Assembly (NCBI GenBank): GCA_007125165.1
Contig: SLDV01000116.1
Span: 1 to 61,004, forward strand
Direction of reading: 5' to 3'
From: Geobacteraceae bacterium
GTDB taxonomy: Bacteria; Desulfobacterota; Desulfuromonadia; Desulfuromonadales; Geopsychrobacteraceae
DNA length: 61,004 nt
Position numbers and translations under genes: made by a program. The notes below the pieces were generated by a model that was given only the letters and a program-made list of their open reading frames with translations, did not search any database and was not told the DNA's origin. Positions 24,899 to 35,828 of this stretch are shown here, one piece after another (position 1 is the first letter of the stretch; every line of letters starts with the position of its first letter).

Positions 24899-25363
24899 TC
24901 ATTGCTCCGCCGCCAGAGGAAGTTCCTCTATCAGCCGGGAAAAAATTTCCCGCTCACGCTTTTCCATCTCTACAGCCTGCTTTACTGTTCCGCGCTCATG
25001 GTCGTAGCCGAGCAGATGCAGGATGCCATGGACCAGCAGAAACCAGAGTTCGTGTTCGAAGGGAATTTCAGCCGCTGCTGCATCAGCGGCGGCACGCTCT
25101 GCTGAAATCACCACATCGCCAAGCAGGTACGGTTGAACCCCTGCTCCCTGCCCTTCCTGCATGGCGAATGAAATCACATTGGTCGGCCGGTCGCGCTGCA
25201 GATAGTCCCGATTGATACGCCGGATACCTTCATTGTCGAGAATCAGAATCGACAACTCAGCGTCAGACTTCCCGCAGATATCTAAGATCCGCTGAGCTAC
25301 TCTGCGTAGCGGCCGTTTGAGAACCCGGTACCGGCGTTGGCGGTTTTCGATCTGAATTCGCAT
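24899..25363 (-). CDS. ybeY: Endoribonuclease YbeY
   Basis: 154 residues. Metal-dependent RNase needed for 16S rRNA 3'-end maturation and late ribosome quality control. The zinc motif HGILHLLGYDH is intact, preceded by the TNVISFAM strand. ATG 25363 begins the conserved MRIQIENRQRR and has AAGG upstream; this places the first 33 codons on top of the 3' end of pgpH in another frame, an unusual 101-base overlap. Confidence 0.94.
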   Translation of the reverse strand: MRIQIENRQRRYRVLKRPLRRVAQRILDICGKSDAELSILILDNEGIRRINRDYLQRDRPTNVISFAMQEGQGAGVQPYLLGDVVISAERAAADAAAAEIPFEHELWFLLVHGILHLLGYDHERGTVKQAVEMEKREREIFSRLIEELPLAAEQ

Positions 25364-27668
25364 TGTTGGCCTTGACCTTTTCTCGCGTAGCAGCGGCATC
25401 GCTGCCATCACTTTTGTTTTTGACTATATGGACCGGCTCCGGATAGTCGACCCGATGGTGGAACGAACTTGACAGGACGCGGGTAAAGCTTCTGGCAATT
25501 TCATTCAAATCTTTCAAGGTCAGATCACACTCATTGAGCTGCCCGTCGATAAAGATGTTATTGATCAGTTTTTTCACCATCCCCTGAATGCGCGCCGGAG
25601 TGGGATCGGCCAGGGTACGGCTGGCCGCCTCGACGGCATCTGCCAGCATGATCAGAGCCGCTTCCCTGGTTTGCGGCTTGGGGCCATGGTAACGATAGTC
25701 GCGCTCATTGATCTGTTGTACTCCCGGATCAGCAAGGGTTTTGGCGCGATCATAAAAAAACTTGATCAAGGCGGTACCGTGATGTTGCTGAATGATATCA
25801 ATCAATTCCGATCCGAGCTTGTTCTCCCGCGCCAGATCAACCCCGTCCTTGACATGGGAGGTCAGGATCAGGGCACTCATAGAGGGTGCCAGTTTGTCGT
25901 GCTTATTCCTCTGCCCGCCCGTATTTTCGATAAAGTAAAGGGGTTTGCGTATTTTTCCGATGTCGTGATAATAGGCCGCCACGCGCGCCAGCAGGGGGTT
26001 GGCACGAATCGACTCAGCCGCTGACTCGGCGAGGTTGCCGACCAGAATCGAGTGATGGTAGGTTCCCGGCGCCTGAATCATCAGTTGGCGCAAAACCGGC
26101 GCATTCATATTGGCCAGTTCCAGCAGCTTGATATCGGTTGTATATTTGAACAGCGACTCAACCAGGGGGATGGTACCGTTAACAATGATCGCACTGATCA
26201 TCCCTCCGGCAAAACCGAATCCAAGACGATACAACAACTGCATATCGGCAGCACGTCCGGTCAGCAGATGCAGACCGATCAGCATGGCGACGTTGGCCAG
26301 GCCGAGCCACAGACCGGCACGATAGAGGGTTGTTCGCTGCTGACATTGGCGAACTCCGTGAGCTCCGACAATACTGCCGACCAAAGCATAAAGGGCCACC
26401 AGAAGGTTATTACCGAACAGCACTCCTGCCAGAACGGCACTGGCAACAGCGACAATGAAAGCGGTTTCGGAATTGAGCACAATTCGTACCAGCATCGCTG
26501 CCAGGGCAAAAGGAATAGCATAATGGTAGGTCGCCGCATCGATTGACGTCAGAACCGTCCCCATGCCGGCAGAAACGAAGATCGATACCTTGATCAGAAG
26601 AAAGTGGGCGATAAGGACCGCTCCCAGAAACATCAGGTCACGTCGATCGGGATTGAACTTGCTGATGTTTCCCTGGGCGAAGACAAAACCAGCGAAGATC
26701 AGCAACAGAATACAGATGAGCAGGCCGGCAGCGGTCTGAAGTGAGTGGCTGCTTCGCCCCGACTCCCGCAACGCCTGGAGCTTGGCAATCTGGTCGGCGG
26801 TGATCCGCTCCCCCTCCCTGACCACCATTTCCCCTTTCTTGATCTGAAAAAAAACCGGCGTCACCTGACTTCCTGCTATCAACCGACGGTGCTCTGTTTC
26901 CTGCTGATCAAACTCCAGATTGGGACGCAACTGCTGCTGTACCAGCTTCAACAGAACCTGTTGCTGGGCAGTATTCAGGGCAGCAATACGTGCCAGATGT
27001 CGTTCTGCAGCGTGAAAAGCTTCGTTAAGCCCGATGGCGCGATCAAACCATTGATCCGTCGGCGCCCGCTCACGCTCACCTTCCATCACCACCATTCCTT
27101 GTCGCCGAGCTTCCTGAAAGTTCTGCATGCTGGCAACAATTGGACGATCAAACAAAGGGGTCAGCAGATCACGAATCTGGTGCACCATATCCATGTCAAG
27201 GGGAAGGCTTAAGAGCGGCCCATAGTCATCATCGGTAAGGGGCACGCCAAAATCTGCTTCCAGGCGCGGCAGAAGATCTTCAAATGAGTATAGCTCTGTC
27301 TCACCCAGACGGTGGGACAAAAACACCAGGCCCCGTTCAAGCCTTTCGACTGCCCGCGATCCGACAGTCGGATCGAAACGATAGACCAACGGCACATCAC
27401 GAGCAGCGGATTCGCGTTTGGCACGAGTCAGCTCCACATCTTCAACCAGCAGGTCACGCGGAGACTTGATATCTCTGGGAGCAATGTCTCCGGGCATGTA
27501 GGATGCCGGGATTAAGCCCCCTTTAGGAGCGATAATAACAGCCAGAAGCAGCGCAACGCCGAGGAGTACCCATTTTCGCAACTGTACCGTACTACTCCAG
27601 AAACGACTTTTGTGCCAGTTTTTGAGGCGACTGCGCCCCACATTTTTCTGTTTTTTATCTTTGGTCAT
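25263..27668 (-). CDS. pgpH: 7TM-HD membrane phosphohydrolase (PgpH family)
   Basis: 801 residues. An N-terminal membrane anchor (VLLGVALLLAVIIAPKG), a large extracytoplasmic region, about seven membrane segments in the middle, and a cytoplasmic HD domain (TYHHSILVGNLAESAAES, RVAAYYHDIGKIRKPLYF, DIIQQHHGTALIKFFY). Characterised PgpH proteins hydrolyse cyclic di-AMP; activity here is inferred. The last 40 or so residues are low-complexity and are encoded over the start of ybeY. Follows phoH by 7 bases. Confidence 0.92.
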   Translation of the reverse strand: MTKDKKQKNVGRSRLKNWHKSRFWSSTVQLRKWVLLGVALLLAVIIAPKGGLIPASYMPGDIAPRDIKSPRDLLVEDVELTRAKRESAARDVPLVYRFDPTVGSRAVERLERGLVFLSHRLGETELYSFEDLLPRLEADFGVPLTDDDYGPLLSLPLDMDMVHQIRDLLTPLFDRPIVASMQNFQEARRQGMVVMEGERERAPTDQWFDRAIGLNEAFHAAERHLARIAALNTAQQQVLLKLVQQQLRPNLEFDQQETEHRRLIAGSQVTPVFFQIKKGEMVVREGERITADQIAKLQALRESGRSSHSLQTAAGLLICILLLIFAGFVFAQGNISKFNPDRRDLMFLGAVLIAHFLLIKVSIFVSAGMGTVLTSIDAATYHYAIPFALAAMLVRIVLNSETAFIVAVASAVLAGVLFGNNLLVALYALVGSIVGAHGVRQCQQRTTLYRAGLWLGLANVAMLIGLHLLTGRAADMQLLYRLGFGFAGGMISAIIVNGTIPLVESLFKYTTDIKLLELANMNAPVLRQLMIQAPGTYHHSILVGNLAESAAESIRANPLLARVAAYYHDIGKIRKPLYFIENTGGQRNKHDKLAPSMSALILTSHVKDGVDLARENKLGSELIDIIQQHHGTALIKFFYDRAKTLADPGVQQINERDYRYHGPKPQTREAALIMLADAVEAASRTLADPTPARIQGMVKKLINNIFIDGQLNECDLTLKDLNEIARSFTRVLSSSFHHRVDYPEPVHIVKNKSDGSDAAATREKVKANNANSDRKPPTPVPGSQTAATQSSSADLRYLREV

Positions 27669-28761: not shown

Positions 28762-28839
28762 CAATGCAAGAGGCACATCCTTAAGATGACGTCATTCCCC
28801 TCTAACCTGTCTCATGATATAATTCTATTTTATTAAATG

Positions 28840-28995
28840 ATTAGCACCAATCTTCCGCTTGAACCCTTCTCCTGAGGGAGAAGGTGGCTGAAAGCCGGAT
28901 GAGAGGGCTTTGGATGGTCAAATCTCCCCCCTCACCCTGGTCCTCTCCCTCAGGGAGAGGGGATAAGATTGCATCCACGGAAGATTAGTTCTAAT
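28840..28995. repeat. Composite palindromic intergenic element
   Basis: The outer ends ATTAGCACCAATCTTCCG (28840-28857) and CGGAAGATTAGTTCTAAT (28978-28995) are inverted copies with two mismatches. Inside are two short hairpins, CTTCTCC-tga-GGGAGAAG (about 28866-28883) and CCTCTCCC-tca-GGGAGAGG (about 28942-28960). The layout is that of a small non-autonomous mobile element. It lies in the 389-base gap between divergent phoH and the HEAT-like gene; apart from this and the next repeat I see no gene in that gap. Confidence 0.6.
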
Positions 28996-29033
28996 CCGGC
29001 TTTATTATTGCTGTGGCGGTTAAATATTGAAAT

Positions 29034-29101
29034 GGGGCGCGATTCATCGTGCCCGATTGTCAAAACAGGTCCACAAAACAGGGCGCGATGAATCGCGCCC
29101 C
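29034..29101. repeat. Inverted repeat GGGGCGCGATTCATCG type
   Basis: GGGGCGCGATTCATCGTGCCC (29034-29054, 21 bases in all, here named only by its ends GGGGCGCGATT...GTGCCC) and its near-perfect inverse at 29081-29101 flank a 26-base loop. The arms are G+C-rich and each is nearly self-complementary, as in REP-type elements. It ends 65 bases before the GTG start of the HEAT-like gene. Confidence 0.55.
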
Positions 29102-29165: not shown

Positions 29166-31325
29166 GTGGATCCAGTTTATTCTATTTACAACGACGAAAA
29201 AAACAGCTCTTCAGCTATTGAAACACTGCTGAAACAACTGAATGTAACCCGCCGGATGATCGGACTGTACCCGACCGATCATCCGCAGATTCGCACCAGT
29301 ATCAGCCGGACACTGACTATCCTTAATCGGTTGTGGGATGAAAACCGGCTACTGACTCTGGGCATTACACCGACGACAATTTTCGTTAATAATCGTCGTA
29401 TCGAACAGCAGGATCCGATTTACAGGGAATTTGCCCGTTTTTTTTTCCACGCCGGCGTCGCTTCTATCAGTTTTCACAAAGGCCTTGACGCACAGGAACT
29501 GATCCGCTTTCATCGACTTCTCCAAAACAAGGATGAGTCTGCCCTCCAGGAAGAATCCTTAGTCGCACTGCTGGAAGAAGAGAAAATTTTTAATATCAGC
29601 GTCCAGATAATCGATTATGCAGCTTTCCGTGAAAAATCAGTGGATCCGGCAACCGGACAGAATGCGGACGACAGCCTCTGGGAAGATTTTCTCCACAGGT
29701 TACAGGAAGGGGTCCTGGAGACGACCGGCTATCTCAACTCCGATCATCAGGAGGAGGTTGCTGAACTCTTCAGACGTAAACTCTCCGGCACACCCACCGA
29801 GCAGGAGCAGGCCGCAGAAGGCAGCAGACACCTGTTGTCTTTTGGTTATTCCGGTCGGCAATCGGCCATCTCTTTACAAAATTATGACAAAAAGCTCAAC
29901 ATGCTGCTGGAAAAGCTCGCACCAGAAACAAGGAATGACTTTCTCTACAAGGGGCTGAAGCGTCTCGAAGACCATGAACAGTCAAGCCTGCAATTAGCAT
30001 TGAAACGCATTTCTCCAGGATTTCTTGAAGGAATGCTGGCACATTCGACCAGACTCAACAGTGCTCTTTCTCCGCGCCTGCTCAATCTGATCAACACTCT
30101 GTCTAGCGATAGCAATCCGGAAATAACTCCTACTGCCAAAAGTTTTTCCGCCGAGGAAACCCGCACCCGGATAGATGTCCTGTTTCAAGAAGAACAGGAA
30201 GATATCTATATGCCTGCCGGCTATCAGCAGGCCCTCCGTACAGCGATCAGCACCAGTGTGTCGGGAACTCTGTCAGTAGAAGACCGGGATGCGCTGAACG
30301 AACTACTCAACAATCAATCTGTTGAGGAACACACGGCACGGATCATTTATGAACGCCTGCAAACACGCCCCAACGCCCAACTGGCAGTGACATTTCAGAA
30401 TCATCTGCTTGATTTCTCACGCATGTTTCTCGAAGCAGGTAATTATGTCGCCCTGCACTCTGCTTATCAGCACTGGACCCGGTTTGTCAGCCAGAGCGGG
30501 AGCCCCATCGAACTGCTGGCGGAAAAACTGGTTGCCTACCACACCCAGGCATCATTCATGGCCGAGGTCCTTGACGGATTTGATCTCTGGGAAGCTGACA
30601 GACACCAGGAAATAATCGACTATATCGTCCTGGTCGGCAGCCCTTATTGCGAACCGATCGTCGAACGACTGGGACTGGCACGTCACTACACAGAACGCAG
30701 GCGCTGGATTGATCTGCTAACCCGAATCAGTGGAAATGCCCAGCAGATAATGATCACCTTCCTTGGCGATGAGCGTTGGTATCTGGTACGTAATCTGGTC
30801 ATGGTTCTTGGCGCCGAGCCAACTCCAGCGGTTCTTAAGGCGATACAACCCCTGTACCAGCACCCCCATCCCCAGGTCCGAACAGAAGCAATCCGTCTTC
30901 TTTTTTCCTGTAATCCGGCCACCGCCAATCGCCTGTTACTGGCAGAGCTGAATTGTCGTGATGAGGAGGCCTGTCTCGCGGCGATAGGCATTGCGCATTT
31001 AAGCCGTGACCCGGAGGTATTGACATTCCTGCACCGGCAACTTGAGAAAGAGCCGAACAGCGATGGTGAGTTGACTCGCTTAAGAGCCGTTATTAACACC
31101 CTGTGCCGACGTGGAGAAAAGGAAAGCCTTGTGATCATGCGGCGAGCCCTCAACCGCAGCGGCTTGCTGATTCATCGACGCACCCGTCAATTGCAGCACG
31201 ATATCATTTCCGCTCTTGCCGACTTCAAACACTCTGCTGCCGACAAACTGCTGCAAGAATTGTCGACAGGAAAATTCCGCCGCGATGTTGCTGCAGTCAT
31301 AGCCAAACGCCAGGAGTCGCTATGA
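29166..31325 (+). CDS. HEAT-repeat-like protein, cassette copy 1
   Basis: 719 residues, no family name that I recognise. No signal peptide or membrane segment. Residues about 15-155 form a domain shared with the other three proteins of this locus (RMIGLYPTDHPQIR, LLTLGITPTTIFVNNRRI, ISFHKGLDAQELIRFHRLL, SVQIIDYAAF). The middle is helical. From about 500 the C-terminal part looks like HEAT repeats: DERWYLVRNLVMVLG (535-549), HPHPQVRTEAIRLLF (566-580), NPATANRLLLAEL. The start is GTG 29166 with AAGGG 7 bases upstream. It overlaps the next gene by ATGA, so it is probably made together with that HD-GYP protein and may bind it. It is paralogous to the protein at 32563-34707. Confidence 0.85.
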   Translation: MDPVYSIYNDEKNSSSAIETLLKQLNVTRRMIGLYPTDHPQIRTSISRTLTILNRLWDENRLLTLGITPTTIFVNNRRIEQQDPIYREFARFFFHAGVASISFHKGLDAQELIRFHRLLQNKDESALQEESLVALLEEEKIFNISVQIIDYAAFREKSVDPATGQNADDSLWEDFLHRLQEGVLETTGYLNSDHQEEVAELFRRKLSGTPTEQEQAAEGSRHLLSFGYSGRQSAISLQNYDKKLNMLLEKLAPETRNDFLYKGLKRLEDHEQSSLQLALKRISPGFLEGMLAHSTRLNSALSPRLLNLINTLSSDSNPEITPTAKSFSAEETRTRIDVLFQEEQEDIYMPAGYQQALRTAISTSVSGTLSVEDRDALNELLNNQSVEEHTARIIYERLQTRPNAQLAVTFQNHLLDFSRMFLEAGNYVALHSAYQHWTRFVSQSGSPIELLAEKLVAYHTQASFMAEVLDGFDLWEADRHQEIIDYIVLVGSPYCEPIVERLGLARHYTERRRWIDLLTRISGNAQQIMITFLGDERWYLVRNLVMVLGAEPTPAVLKAIQPLYQHPHPQVRTEAIRLLFSCNPATANRLLLAELNCRDEEACLAAIGIAHLSRDPEVLTFLHRQLEKEPNSDGELTRLRAVINTLCRRGEKESLVIMRRALNRSGLLIHRRTRQLQHDIISALADFKHSAADKLLQELSTGKFRRDVAAVIAKRQESL

Positions 31326-32467
31326 GTCTGAGAGATAAAGACAGACTGGAGAAGCTGCTACGCCTGCTGACCACGGCTGCCGCCAACGCAACCCTGTACA
31401 ACCTCGAGCATCTGCAGGTACTGCGACTGAACAAACAAGCGATGGTGGAGCTGCAGGCGCTCTTTTGTAAGAATGACGAAATCAACCTAAAAATGATCGA
31501 CAACTTGCTGATCTACAACAATCAACCCGTGCCGGAAACTCCACCGGCCAGACGTTTCATCGACGCGCTTAAAAGGAATGGCATTAATTTTCTGCGCATC
31601 ACCGCGGGAATCTACAACGAGGAGCTGCTGGGACTCATCAATATCCTCAGCAAAAGCGCAGATCGGCCGGTGGCCATCAACAGTAGCGAACATCTGTATT
31701 TTGGCCAGTTGGAAGTACGACGGCGGGTGCAAGGAAGTTTGTTCCCGGGATGGGAATTACAGCAGATTGCGGCTCAAGAGGCCGATCATCTGCTGGAAAT
31801 ATACGACGCTGTTCGCGCCGGCGAGAACCTCGACCTGACCGCAGTTCACCATATTGTCGACGGTTTTATCGCTTCTTTTCATCACCAGAAGGACGCTTTT
31901 ATGGCCTTCGCTCCATTACGCTCCATGGACGAATATACCTACACCCATTCCACCAATATCTGCATCCTCAACATCGCCCAGGCACAAAGCCTCGGCATTG
32001 AAGGCAAACTGCTGACCGATATCGGCCTGGCAGCCATGCTCCACGATGTCGGGAAAATGTTTGTTCCCCATGACATTCTCGCCAAAGCGGGGCAACTCAG
32101 TGAAACCGAATGGCACATCATGCAGCAGCACCCGGTTCTCGGTGCCGACTATCTGCTTAAGACTCCAGGTGTTCCGCGCCTGGCCGTCGTCACCGCCTAC
32201 GAACATCACATGCGTTACGACGGCACCGGATACCCACGCTCTGAGCATCCCTGGACCCAGCATCTCTGTTCTCACATGACCGCCATTTCCGATGCCTACG
32301 ATGCCATGCGCACCCACCGGGCTTATGATGAGGCCATGGATCTCGACCAGATTACGACCATCATGCTCAACCTCGCCGGAACCAAGCTGCATCCTCAGTT
32401 GACCCGTAATTTCATCGCCATGCTGCGCCGCCTTGAATCACCAGATCAACCCCCTGATACCTGCTGA
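31322..32467 (+). CDS. HD-GYP domain protein, cassette copy 1
   Basis: 381 residues. Residues 1-130 carry the same N-terminal domain as the HEAT-like partner (ATLYNLEHLQV, INLKMIDNLLIYNN, YNEELLGLINILS, HLYFGQLEVRRR). The rest is an HD-GYP phosphohydrolase domain: THSTNICILNIAQ, LHDVGKMFVP (His241-Asp242), QQHPVLGADYL, YEHHMRYDGTGYP (His295-His296, GYP 303-305), SDAYDAM. All expected metal ligands are visible, so activity is likely; cyclic di-GMP is the usual substrate of this family. The glutamate that normally follows the His-His pair is methionine. No receiver or sensor domain. ATG overlaps the upstream stop. Confidence 0.88.
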   Translation: MSLRDKDRLEKLLRLLTTAAANATLYNLEHLQVLRLNKQAMVELQALFCKNDEINLKMIDNLLIYNNQPVPETPPARRFIDALKRNGINFLRITAGIYNEELLGLINILSKSADRPVAINSSEHLYFGQLEVRRRVQGSLFPGWELQQIAAQEADHLLEIYDAVRAGENLDLTAVHHIVDGFIASFHHQKDAFMAFAPLRSMDEYTYTHSTNICILNIAQAQSLGIEGKLLTDIGLAAMLHDVGKMFVPHDILAKAGQLSETEWHIMQQHPVLGADYLLKTPGVPRLAVVTAYEHHMRYDGTGYPRSEHPWTQHLCSHMTAISDAYDAMRTHRAYDEAMDLDQITTIMLNLAGTKLHPQLTRNFIAMLRRLESPDQPPDTC

Positions 32468-32509
32468 CTCCCGGCTGCTACCATCAATGCGACAGATAGC
32501 AGTTTCTAG

Positions 32510-32540
32510 TTGACAGCACCCATTAGAGTAAACTTATAAT
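32510..32540 (+). promoter_or_regulatory. Candidate sigma-70 promoter of cassette copy 2
   Basis: TTGACA (32510-32515) and TATAAT (32535-32540) are separated by 19 bases; reading CTTATA as the -10 gives 17. The gene starts 23 bases after the -10. Both hexamers are near consensus in an otherwise ordinary 95-base gap, suggesting the second cassette can be transcribed independently of the first. Confidence 0.45.
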
Positions 32541-32562
32541 AATGGGCGCCCGAGGTTATCAA

Positions 32563-34707
32563 ATGAACACTGCTGATCAGCAAAAAATAAATGAAAACAG
32601 AGGCCTGTCCAATTTTGTTCATGAGTTGAACGTGTTCCGGCGACAGATTGCTCTCTACCCCCCGGCACATCCAAAGACTCTGGCCGGAGCCGGAAAGATT
32701 CTGGCGGAGCTCGCAAAGCTCGGCAAGTACGGCGACTGTATCAGTCTTGGCGTCACCCCTGACAGCCTTATTTTCAAAGACAAGTTCCTGGACCTAGACA
32801 ATCCGAGCTGCCGCGATCTTGCAACTTTTTTCTCAAAGCTGGATATTGCCGTTGTCAGTTTCTACCAGAACCTGAGCACAGAGGAACTGATTGAATTTTG
32901 GCGATTACTCTCCAGCAGAATCAGTGGTCGACAGTCAACAGCTCTTGAGCTGGCCCTCAAAGAGCACCAGATCATTCATATCCGTCTCCAGGTCACGGAC
33001 TATAGCGCTTTCACCAGTGCAGCTCCTGGCTCTGCGCCATCGGCAGCAAAAGCCGATATATGGAAAGAGTTTGTGCAAACCTTGATGCCCGGCAACGATA
33101 GCGCGATTGCCGACGTTGCCGATAATCATGCCGACCAGTTGGCGCAGATGTTGAATAATGCGGTCACGGACGGCATAGACTGCACAGCCATGACTGGAAA
33201 ACTGGTTAGCCGCCTTCTTGAACAATGCCGGGGATCTGTCAACGGCATCGGGGGACAACTCTACGAATTCAGCAAAAAGCTCAAGCCGAGCATCCGCCAG
33301 AGATTCCATGAAGATACCCTGCGGACCCTTGAGCAACAGCCCCACGCCGCCGGTGAAATTATTTCAGGCCTGCCCGCTGATTTTATCAGCGAGGCCCTGC
33401 TCTCACATAGTGGCAAAGAGAAACAACTATCAAACCGTCTTACCGATCTGCTCAGCACCTTTGCCGCGAACACCCCTGAAAAAGGTCGTCAGCGAATTAT
33501 TCAACCTGAGCGCACCAGTGTTGCACAGCAGCAATCACATATTGAGCTGCTGCTGCTGGAAGACCAGCACAATGAATACCTGCCTGATAATTACCAGCAG
33601 ACATTACAGAAAATTCTTACCGGACAAATCCGGGGCAGCCTGCCGGAAAATCTCGCCCAAAAATATCGAAACAGTCTGGCCGAACAGATGGTAGAACACC
33701 AGTGCTGCGAGATTATCTTCGACCTGCTGGAAACAGACACCAACACTGAAACAGAAGGCGTCCTGCAAAGCAACCTGGCTGATCTTTCCCGGTTTTTTCT
33801 TGACACCGGAGATTTCCAGGCCCTGCAAAAGACATTGTCACGCTGGCTGTCCTTCACAAACAGCGGCCGATCAAAAACAAATATACTGACTGAAAAACTC
33901 TTCAGTTCGCAGCTCCAACCCTCTTTTATTGCAGATGTGTTGAATTCTGTTCCGATATGGCACAACGAAAAACTTGCGGAGATATCTGATTACCTGACTG
34001 AAGTCGGGGAGCCTTATGTGGAACCGCTGGTCGAACGCCTCGGTGGAGAAACGGATAAGAATCTGCGTAAAATCTGGATGACACTGCTGCTCGAACTTGG
34101 CAGCTCGGCTCACCCTGCTATCCTGGCGGCTCTGGATGATGGGCGCTGGTATCTGGTTCGCAACCTGCTGGTTATCATGGAGCAGCAGAAGGGAAAAATA
34201 CCACCAAAGACCCTTCTGAAGTTATGTGATCACCCTCACCCTGAAGTCCGCTGCGAAGCATTGCGTTTTCTGTTCCGTGTCAATCCTTCCGCGGCCAATC
34301 GACTGCTGACAGCAGAGCTGGAAAACGCAGACCCGCAGACCCTCAAAGTCATGATTCCTCTGGCTGTGTTGAGCAGTAATGACAGAATCTTTAACCAGTT
34401 AAACAGGCTGCTCGAAACAGAACCGCTAACCGCGGAAAACCTGGAGATCAAACTGGTCGTTCTGGCAAGCCTGTCGACAGCACCACATCCCGACTGCCTG
34501 TTATCTGTCATGCGCCTGGTTGCCAGAAAAGAATTTTTTCTCAACCGTCTGCGCAAACGGATAAAATCGGCGGCTACGGACACGCTGAGAGCCTATCCGC
34601 GCAAGCAGGTCATTGCCTTGTTGCGCCACATGGAAGACAAACAAAGAACAACCATCCAGGACACCTTGTCCTCACAGCCTTTATCAGCATCGAGGCAATC
34701 ACAATGA
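32563..34707 (+). CDS. HEAT-repeat-like protein, cassette copy 2
   Basis: 714 residues, paralogue of 29166-31325 along its whole length. Shared N-terminal domain: RRQIALYPPAHPKT, CISLGVTPDSLIFKDKFL, FYQNLSTEELIEFWRLL, IRLQVTDYSAF. Shared C-terminal HEAT-like part: DGRWYLVRNLLVIME (near 526), HPHPEVRCEALRFLF (557-571), NPSAANRLLTAEL. The middle has diverged strongly. ATG 32563 is preferred over 32542 because GAGG lies 7 bases upstream. ATGA overlap with the next gene repeats the arrangement of copy 1. Function unknown; probably a scaffold or regulator of its HD-GYP partner. Confidence 0.85.
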   Translation: MNTADQQKINENRGLSNFVHELNVFRRQIALYPPAHPKTLAGAGKILAELAKLGKYGDCISLGVTPDSLIFKDKFLDLDNPSCRDLATFFSKLDIAVVSFYQNLSTEELIEFWRLLSSRISGRQSTALELALKEHQIIHIRLQVTDYSAFTSAAPGSAPSAAKADIWKEFVQTLMPGNDSAIADVADNHADQLAQMLNNAVTDGIDCTAMTGKLVSRLLEQCRGSVNGIGGQLYEFSKKLKPSIRQRFHEDTLRTLEQQPHAAGEIISGLPADFISEALLSHSGKEKQLSNRLTDLLSTFAANTPEKGRQRIIQPERTSVAQQQSHIELLLLEDQHNEYLPDNYQQTLQKILTGQIRGSLPENLAQKYRNSLAEQMVEHQCCEIIFDLLETDTNTETEGVLQSNLADLSRFFLDTGDFQALQKTLSRWLSFTNSGRSKTNILTEKLFSSQLQPSFIADVLNSVPIWHNEKLAEISDYLTEVGEPYVEPLVERLGGETDKNLRKIWMTLLLELGSSAHPAILAALDDGRWYLVRNLLVIMEQQKGKIPPKTLLKLCDHPHPEVRCEALRFLFRVNPSAANRLLTAELENADPQTLKVMIPLAVLSSNDRIFNQLNRLLETEPLTAENLEIKLVVLASLSTAPHPDCLLSVMRLVARKEFFLNRLRKRIKSAATDTLRAYPRKQVIALLRHMEDKQRTTIQDTLSSQPLSASRQSQ

Positions 34708-35828
34708 AACCGATCACAGAATCTCCGGCACAGCAGTTTGTCCGCAGCCTTACTACCGCCCTGGCGACCATTCGCCTCTATGACGCCAATCATCCGCAGG
34801 TAGTGAATCTGTGCCGTCAGGCGATGGATCAGCTACGTCAACAATTTCTTGACACGGATAACGTAACGCTGAAGATCATCAATGACAAGCTGGTATTTCA
34901 GGATGTCAGACTTACAGACAACCTCTCCGTCGAACGCCTGCTCCGCGCCATGCATGCTCATGACCTGAGTTTCATCATGCTCGATGCAAGAGTCGGTCTG
35001 GAAGATCTGGTGCAGATGGCGGAAAAACTCAGTCGTGATTCTCGTCAGGTAACAGCGCAACCCCTTTTGCCTAACGACACCATTGTGTACGGCAATGTTG
35101 CAATCCGCCGCCCGGCTCAAAAAGCTGCGCCAAGCGCAGCCTCTGACTTTCAGGCGGTTGCTGATGAAAACCTCGACAAATTCATGGATATCTACAGCAG
35201 CATCGGTCATGGAAAAAAAATTCATGCAACCGGCCTGGGAGAAATTGTTCAGCAGTTTGTTTCGGTGTTTCACGATCAGCAAAATGTCATGCTGGCACTG
35301 GCGCCGATTCGGTCGATGGATGAGTATCTTTACACCCACTCCACCAATATCTGCCTGCTCAATCTTGCTCAGGCCCGACTACTCGGCATCGATGGACAAA
35401 TGCTCAACGATATCGGGATTGCTGCCATGCTGCACGATGCCGGCAAGATGTTTATCCCTGCTGAGGTGCTCAACAAACAGGGAAAACTGGATGACAGGGA
35501 GTGGGAACTGATGCGCAGCCATCCGCGCCTCGGTGCACAATACCTGCTGAACTGCCCCGGCATTCCGCGACTGGCCGTGGTGACGGCGTACGAGCATCAC
35601 ATCGGCTATGATGGTACCGGATATCCTGTGAGTTTTCGCAAACTGAATCCCTGCAGCTACATGACATCCATATCCGACATCTACGATGCCTTGAGAACCC
35701 GGCGAACCTACAAAGAGCCTTTGAGCTTCGATCAGATTAAAAGCATCATGAGCGACAGTGCCGGCAAGGCACTGCATCCGCACCTGACCCACTCTTTTCT
35801 GACGGCATTATCTAAATTGGAGCAATAA
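34704..35828 (+). CDS. HD-GYP domain protein, cassette copy 2
   Basis: 374 residues, paralogue of 31322-32467. N-terminal shared domain: IRLYDANHPQVV, VTLKIINDKLVFQD, GLEDLVQMAEKLS, TIVYGNVAIRR. HD-GYP domain: YTHSTNICLLNLAQARLLG, LHDAGKMFIP (His244-Asp245), RSHPRLGAQYLL, YEHHIGYDGTGYP, SDIYDAL. Ligand histidines and aspartates are kept; the residue after His-His is isoleucine, not glutamate. It should act as a cyclic dinucleotide phosphodiesterase or as a sensor of such nucleotides. ATG overlaps the upstream stop. Confidence 0.88.
   Translation: MKPITESPAQQFVRSLTTALATIRLYDANHPQVVNLCRQAMDQLRQQFLDTDNVTLKIINDKLVFQDVRLTDNLSVERLLRAMHAHDLSFIMLDARVGLEDLVQMAEKLSRDSRQVTAQPLLPNDTIVYGNVAIRRPAQKAAPSAASDFQAVADENLDKFMDIYSSIGHGKKIHATGLGEIVQQFVSVFHDQQNVMLALAPIRSMDEYLYTHSTNICLLNLAQARLLGIDGQMLNDIGIAAMLHDAGKMFIPAEVLNKQGKLDDREWELMRSHPRLGAQYLLNCPGIPRLAVVTAYEHHIGYDGTGYPVSFRKLNPCSYMTSISDIYDALRTRRTYKEPLSFDQIKSIMSDSAGKALHPHLTHSFLTALSKLEQ

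Follow-up and report, generated by a model that had tools for sequence, protein, structure and literature searches.

The described proteins closest to the HD-GYP enzymes reported here are the PmGH-type c-di-GMP phosphodiesterases. PmGH (PDB 4mcw) and PA4781 (PDB 4r8z) share the catalytic domain with these enzymes by sequence (E value of 4e-24) and by fold, and the best PDB matches comprise PmGH, V-cGAP3, PA4781, DvhD, and Bd1817. Where PmGH has a GAF sensory domain, the enzymes reported here instead carry an N-terminal domain that is common to a separate HEAT partner encoded upstream. V-cGAP3 (PDB 5z7c), which is known for its specificity for cGAMP, is similar in the HD-GYP domain (E value of 5e-19), and no HEAT partner has been described for it. 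HD-GYP proteins have been split into an E/D-T-G subfamily, which is trinuclear, and a Y/F subfamily, which is predicted to be dinuclear, with the ligands listed from PmGH (PMC4159591). DvhD from Desulfovibrio vulgaris (PDB 9rbz and 9rc0) is a structural match to the same domain. It is membrane-bound, has PAS and dCache domains, and lacks the HD and HH ligands, and it too has no described HEAT partner. DvhD is a c-di-GMP receptor because its HD and HH motifs have been lost, and it provides a precedent for HD-GYP proteins that act via partner proteins (PMC13090378).

For the HEAT proteins, the C-terminal repeats match HEAT_2 and PBS-lyase-type HEAT proteins and the designed alphaRep scaffolds, and the Foldseek matches are generic scaffolds such as SF3B1, the PP2A A subunit, and karyopherins. 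None of these generic scaffolds is paired with an HD-GYP enzyme, unlike the HEAT proteins reported here, and the PP2A A subunit is comparable only as a functional analogy.

The window analyzed here is a stretch of DNA of 61,004 nucleotides from a Geobacteraceae bacterium, and it contains two consecutive cassettes, each made of a HEAT gene followed by an HD-GYP gene. The ingredients, an HD-GYP enzyme, a HEAT solenoid, and c-di-GMP signaling, are of known kinds; what is new is the fixed pairing of the two proteins through a common, uncatalogued domain (the N-domain). Neither HEAT with HD-GYP nor HEAT with PilZ was found as such a system in the databases and open-license literature searched, in agreement with the sequence-only reading, which knew of no described system of this form.

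The tandem cassettes and their proteins

Both pairs lie on the plus strand between positions 29166 and 35828, and in both the two genes meet at a 4-nt ATGA junction. This confirms the layout that had been proposed from the sequence, with HEAT proteins of about 715 residues (719 and 721 amino acids) overlapping HD-GYP proteins. The features of the locus are as follows.

29166-31325, plus strand: HEAT A, GTG start, 719 amino acids, with the shared N-domain and a long alpha-solenoid
29208-29597, plus strand: shared N-domain in HEAT A (match to an N-domain profile, E value of 5e-18)
30543-31319, plus strand: conserved C-terminal HEAT solenoid of HEAT A, with RWYLVRNL and HPHPxVRxEA within it
31322-32467, plus strand: HD-GYP A, 381 amino acids, with its ATG within the ATGA overlap with the HEAT A stop
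31322-31720, plus strand: shared N-domain in HD-GYP A (E value of 1e-41)
31979-32398, plus strand: HD-GYP domain A (Pfam match)
32542-34707, plus strand: HEAT B, 721 amino acids, with the likely true start at the ATG at 32563
32599-32988, plus strand: shared N-domain in HEAT B (E value of 9e-17)
34704-35828, plus strand: HD-GYP B, 374 amino acids, with an ATGA overlap
34704-35108, plus strand: shared N-domain in HD-GYP B (E value of 1e-38)
35319-35768, plus strand: HD-GYP domain B (domain match)

The start of HEAT B is more likely at 32563 than at 32542, because this ATG is closely preceded by a GAGG and is also the start used in the closest relative (L041:8802). For HD-GYP A, a 454-amino-acid open reading frame from 31103 was rejected as a mere mechanical upstream extension, and the 381-amino-acid start is preferred. 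Promoter and terminator scans around the cassettes gave scores no better than those of shuffles. A TTGACA-19-TATAAT-like stretch upstream of HEAT B was noted by eye only; its spacing is outside the scan range, and no promoter is claimed. No transmembrane segment was found in the cassette proteins, in which the 19-residue Kyte-Doolittle mean nowhere reaches 1.4.

HEAT A and HEAT B are 29% identical over 694 residues (E value of 5e-98), and HD-GYP A and HD-GYP B are 43% identical over 366 residues (E value of 2e-110), with an HD_5 match in both enzymes. Conservation between the HEAT proteins is highest in the C-terminal half, both RWYLVRNL and HPHPxVRxEA are found in each copy, and the middle has diverged, as described in the sequence-only reading. 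A third HEAT/HD-GYP pair is present in the same genome, on contig C93.

The HEAT_2 model (PF13646; Pfam cut-off of 27.7 bits) scores 32.4 bits in HEAT A, where the match spans amino acids 532 to 579, and 22.5 bits in HEAT B. TIGR02270 matches HEAT A only, at 18.6 bits, which is below its curated cut-off of 206.8. The AlphaFold2 (AF2) model of the HEAT protein consists of the N-domain and some 30 helices; its C-terminal solenoid is ordered, and the pLDDT is mostly above 90 from residue 460 onward. Within this solenoid, D535, R537, W538, and R542 (HEAT A positions) are invariant.

The HEAT and HD-GYP proteins begin with homologous segments of ~130 residues each. Profile-profile comparison of the two N-domains gives a probability of 99.6 and an E value of 1e-24 over 133 of 142 columns, and a hint of the same relationship is seen in the pairwise BLAST of HEAT B against HD-GYP B (E value of 2e-5). 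The N-domain is marked by the signature LYPxxHPxV, located in a helical hairpin; two strands come next, and then helix, strand, and helix in turn. The AF2 models of the HEAT and HD-GYP N-domains present the same secondary-structure order with high local confidence. The N-domain is matched by no Pfam or NCBIfam model, and annotation would consequently label the two genes simply as a HEAT protein and an HD-GYP protein with no relation to each other. No PDB sequence match was found for the N-domain or for the middle of the HEAT protein, and Foldseek was run on whole models, for which the matches were dominated by HD-GYP and HEAT and not by the N-domain. In the genome of the window, the N-domain occurs in exactly six proteins, which are the members of three pairs (two in the window and one on C93). 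The homology of the N termini of the two partners is a feature absent from the sequence-only reading.

Pairing and co-inheritance across genomes

Neighborhoods were taken from relatives and family-level genomes, from named genomes, and from phylum-level genomes, and the tally was de-duplicated. An N-domain HD-GYP gene lies directly behind 151 of 162 distinct N-domain HEAT genes; among the remaining 11, three partners are cut by a contig end, one case is undecidable, and seven are without a partner. Conversely, 160 of the 163 N-domain HD-GYPs in the fetched loci have a HEAT gene upstream, a proportion biased by the fact that most of these loci were found through HEAT. A search with the N-domain in 30 genomes of the class, 28 of which gave matches, retrieved 45 N-domain HD-GYPs, and 42 of these lie behind a HEAT gene: 39 are pairs by position, and in three (L076, L079, and L248) the HEAT N-domain is below threshold and the pairing is visible in the loci. 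Lone N-domain HD-GYPs number three (L243, L244, and L245). Given the 263 HD_5 matches across the 30 genomes, the cassette enzymes make up about one in six. In the genome of the window there are only four HD_5 proteins, and three of them are directly behind an N-domain HEAT gene. Chance adjacency of HEAT and HD-GYP is negligible, and the pairing is nearly obligate. It is the single pair that forms the widespread unit, and there is nothing special about the tandem copy as such. A 4-nt start/stop overlap forms the junction in 41 of 65 pairs, and no natural HEAT/HD-GYP fusions were found among the open reading frames scanned.

The seven HEAT genes without a partner fall into several kinds. L246 is a decayed pair, as a 92-amino-acid stretch behind it resembles the C-terminal tail of the missing enzyme. 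L276, L277, and L279, from outside the class, consist of the N-domain and HEAT repeats and end in a cNMP-binding domain and PilZ. L093, L273, and L278 are N-domain HEAT proteins with neither an HD-GYP neighbor nor a known c-di-GMP domain. In addition to these seven, two further relatives, L296 and L297, have the N-domain, HEAT repeats, and a cNMP-binding domain with no Pfam PilZ call. PilZ is an established c-di-GMP receptor domain, and the cNMP-binding and PilZ domains of L276, L277, and L279 give independent support to a role in c-di-GMP signaling for the HEAT partner.

The flanks of the pair vary. A fixed third partner gene was considered and rejected, because a neighbor survey of 134 pairs gave clade-level synteny only, with ABC-F downstream and PhoH and the 7TM-HD protein upstream in the family of the window, CoaE and a small HEAT gene next to the short subtype, and various histidine kinases whose positions near the pairs differ. 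In the window the cassettes are surrounded by core genes. PhoH and a 7TM-HD protein are encoded upstream on the opposite strand, the gene for an ABC-F ATPase lies downstream, and RlmL, apolipoprotein N-acyltransferase, and CTP synthase are encoded at a greater distance. No sign of phage, defense, or transfer functions was found around the cassettes.

Two main subtypes of the pair were observed, a long one with HEAT proteins of ~720 amino acids and HD-GYP proteins of ~380 to 400 amino acids and a short one with HEAT proteins of ~525 to 560 amino acids and HD-GYP proteins of ~435 to 447 amino acids that carry an extra C-terminal domain. By the record titles of the named loci, the pair is present in at least seven phyla, the lineages being Desulfuromonas/Geobacter-type Deltaproteobacteria, Nitrospirae, Methylomirabilota, Acidobacteriota, Actinomycetota (Acidimicrobiia and Coriobacteriia), Eisenbacteria, and Gemmatimonadetes; many of these loci are from metagenome bins, so single lineage names could be wrong. 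The HEAT profile matches 131 of 296 sampled genomes of the GTDB phylum of the window (E value of 1e-10), and a HEAT B homologue is found in 94 of the 98 relatives searched, which speaks for vertical inheritance.

Distances in the HEAT tree and in the HD-GYP tree correlate at r = 0.92 for 123 pairs (about 121 distinct), a mirrored pattern that also arises from linkage and common species phylogeny. At seven tandem loci, the observed assignment of partners ranks first among all 64 swaps (r = 0.96 versus a swap mean of 0.37), a comparison that does not separate linkage from function. As physical linkage alone could give both results, they support the unit and not a particular mechanism. The cassette was duplicated as a unit with no exchange of partners, and the duplication is old. 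The proposal that a stable pairing implies a functional unit, with a neighborhood survey as its test, is supported by these data: the two genes co-occur in many genomes, HEAT homologues are not mostly unpaired, the trees are mirrored, tandem partners are kept, and the catalytic residues are kept, as detailed below.

The HD-GYP enzyme and a putative c-di-GMP module

HD-GYP A and HD-GYP B score 64.1 and 54.9 bits with HD_5 (PF13487), above its cut-off of 27.2, whereas the NosR-family model NF053512 matches only their HD-GYP part, at 68.7 and 60 bits, below its cut-off of 400. In or just before the Pfam match, HD-GYP A presents H209, H241, D242, K245, H270, H295, H296, the GYP motif (303 to 305), and D324. 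Residues D203, Y205, H209, H241, D242, K245, H270, H295, H296, D324, D327, and R333 of HD-GYP A correspond to D183, E185, H189, H221, D222, K225, H250, H276, H277, D305, D308, and R314 of PmGH, respectively. H209, H241, D242, H270, H295, H296, D324, and D327 are kept in 122 to 123 of the 123 pair enzymes aligned. All seven family-wide metal ligands of the PmGH-type phosphodiesterases (H189, H221, D222, H250, H276, H277, and D305 in PmGH numbering) are thereby retained, which points to selection for catalysis. K245 is found in 121 of the 123, and the GYP motif has G in 122, Y in 122, and P in all 123. The position of PmGH E185 is occupied by a tyrosine (Y205) in 120 enzymes, followed by a threonine in 110. 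This is not E/D-T-G but the Y-T-Y signature of the Y/F subfamily as defined previously (PMC4159591). The HD-GYP proteins are thus probably catalytically competent phosphodiesterases of the predicted dinuclear type. At the site of the guanine contact K317 of PmGH, the pair enzymes differ from one another, so the substrate could be c-di-GMP or another cyclic dinucleotide.

The pairing, the N-domain in both partners, the intact active site, and the co-inheritance are read from sequence, and from them we infer a model that covers activity, substrate, docking, scaffold or regulator role, and target. In this model, which we consider probable, the cassette specifies a two-protein c-di-GMP module in which an active phosphodiesterase is bound to a HEAT scaffold of its own. 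Each cassette would encode one such signaling module. The HD-GYP protein would be a cyclic-dinucleotide phosphodiesterase, probably dinuclear (Y/F) and most likely acting on c-di-GMP, and the HEAT protein would be its dedicated partner, a soluble alpha-solenoid platform. The N-domains of the two partners, of common ancestry, would dock on each other, and the solenoid would either hold the enzyme at a target or be switched by the enzyme there. This target would be bound by the diverged middle and the C-terminal repeats of the HEAT protein, and the tandem copies may represent two modules with different targets or inputs. The genome of the window gives 25 GGDEF, 8 EAL, and 7 PilZ matches.

The N-domain and the HEAT relatives with PilZ offer the best leads to the mechanism, and neither figures in the sequence-only reading. 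A more specific form of the model, which is plausible and is put forward tentatively, is that the phosphodiesterase and a HEAT effector meet via their paralogous N-domains, whereas in another lineage the N-domain HEAT platform has cNMP-binding and PilZ domains in cis in place of the enzyme in trans. The result would be a local c-di-GMP switch, insulated and built on a HEAT scaffold, with a distribution over at least seven phyla.

Such relatives with PilZ in cis resemble effectors, and one dedicated partner per enzyme suits local signaling. Both observations would also fit an HD-GYP protein that mainly senses c-di-GMP, with binding or turnover switching its contact with HEAT, the solenoid as the output, and bulk degradation as a secondary effect. 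HD-GYP domains can indeed serve solely as c-di-GMP switches, and DvhD is one such case (PMC13090378). However, DvhD has lost its HD and HH motifs, whereas here practically all of the 123 enzymes retain the metal ligands, and a mainly sensory role is unlikely. An inactive receptor of the DvhD type was rejected as the main reading, as the HD and HH metal ligands are intact in the cassette enzymes.

It is quite improbable that the module acts on another cyclic dinucleotide, such as 3',3'-cGAMP, or on a different phosphodiester. HD-GYP enzymes for cGAMP exist, the second-best PDB match is V-cGAP3 (5z7c), the K317 position varies, and Geobacter relatives use Hypr-GGDEF cGAMP signaling (PMC6456294). 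The PilZ domains on HEAT relatives and the 25 GGDEF domains point instead to c-di-GMP. In addition, we know of no Hypr signaling in many of the lineages that bear the cassette, which also counts against such a substrate.

HD-GYP proteins are commonly dimers. The N-domain could therefore homodimerize each protein separately, with the operon serving co-expression only; two proteins of one operon need not touch, a few partners do occur alone, and DvhD is an example of such a dimer (PMC13090378). Still, the two genes remain neighbors in at least seven phyla although their flanks change, overlapping junctions are frequent, and both partners carry the same domain, which makes mere co-transcription of the two proteins very unlikely. 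Defense loci can contain HEAT proteins as well as HD phosphohydrolases, but an anti-phage or other conflict system is scarcely credible here and was rejected, as PADLOC gave no system match and only partial matches to HEAT and Cas3-HD models (E values of 0.005 to 0.03), the surroundings are the core genes named above, and the presence in 94 of 98 relatives indicates vertical inheritance.

Specificity in c-di-GMP signaling

The HEAT/HD-GYP pair is genuine, old, and widespread, and no description of it came up in the sources searched. It is present in cultured strains, which include Desulfuromusa kysingii DSM 7343, Geomonas oryzae S43, and Geothermobacter hydrogeniphilus HR-1. How specificity is achieved among the dozens of c-di-GMP enzymes in a cell is a long-standing question, and the pair makes this question testable, because each enzyme has one dedicated partner, tandem partners are kept, and the common domain can be swapped or deleted.

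Upstream features of the cassettes

The cassettes, each composed of a HEAT gene overlapped by an HD-GYP gene, are preceded in the window by the following features.

25263-27668, minus strand: 7TM-HD protein gene, with 7TMR-HDED, 7TM-7TMR_HD, and HD domains
28839-28996: inverted repeats, imperfect and nested as a set, CCCTTCTCCTGAGGGAGA among them
29034-29101: inverted repeat with 21-nt arms, GGGGCGCGATTCATCGTGCCC / GGGCGCGATGAATCGCGCCCC, and a 26-nt spacer

The 7TM-HD gene, on the strand opposite to the cassettes, adjoins PhoH, and the synteny of these two genes with the cassettes is retained in approximately 35 loci of the window's family. Proteins of the 7TM-HD type are known to hydrolyze cyclic di-AMP.

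The 29034-29101 repeat is located immediately upstream of HEAT A (29166-31325, plus strand), the first gene of the first cassette. Its arms also occur on nine other contigs of the same genome, and two sites 46 nt apart are found at four places in total; the repeat therefore looks like a small repeated element. The set at 28839-28996 is possibly another miniature repeat element.

Short-subtype flanks and incomplete cassettes

Pairs of the short subtype (HEAT protein of ~525 to 560 amino acids; loci L080 to L099) are usually flanked by coaE and, downstream on the opposite strand, by a gene for a small (~190-amino-acid) pure HEAT-repeat protein, an arrangement that is local synteny.

Three HD-GYP proteins (L243, L244, and L245, all in family f5) carry the N-domain, the ~130-residue N-terminal domain common to both partners, without an adjacent HEAT gene. 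Complete pairs are present at other sites in genomes of this family, and the HEAT partners of the three proteins may be products of distant loci. One further locus is a cassette whose enzyme was lost.

L246:6958-8879: short-subtype HEAT gene followed by only a 92-amino-acid remnant of the HD-GYP C terminus

N-domain in other architectures

Large single proteins in which the N-domain and HEAT repeats are joined to a cNMP-binding domain occur at five loci (L276, L277, and L279, listed below, plus L296 and L297), spread over several genera within another order of the window's phylum; three of the five end in a C-terminal PilZ domain.

L276:5075-8932: N-domain, HEAT repeats, cNMP-binding domain, and C-terminal PilZ
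L277:3014-8056: same architecture
L279:5920-8676: same architecture
L247:4818-6947: 709-amino-acid protein with a remote N-domain copy

The L247 protein has no Pfam matches. Its gene is flanked on one side by a gene for a PP2C-like phosphatase and on the other by a Ser/Thr-kinase-like gene, both assigned by eye, which suggests that the N-domain also serves outside c-di-GMP signalling.
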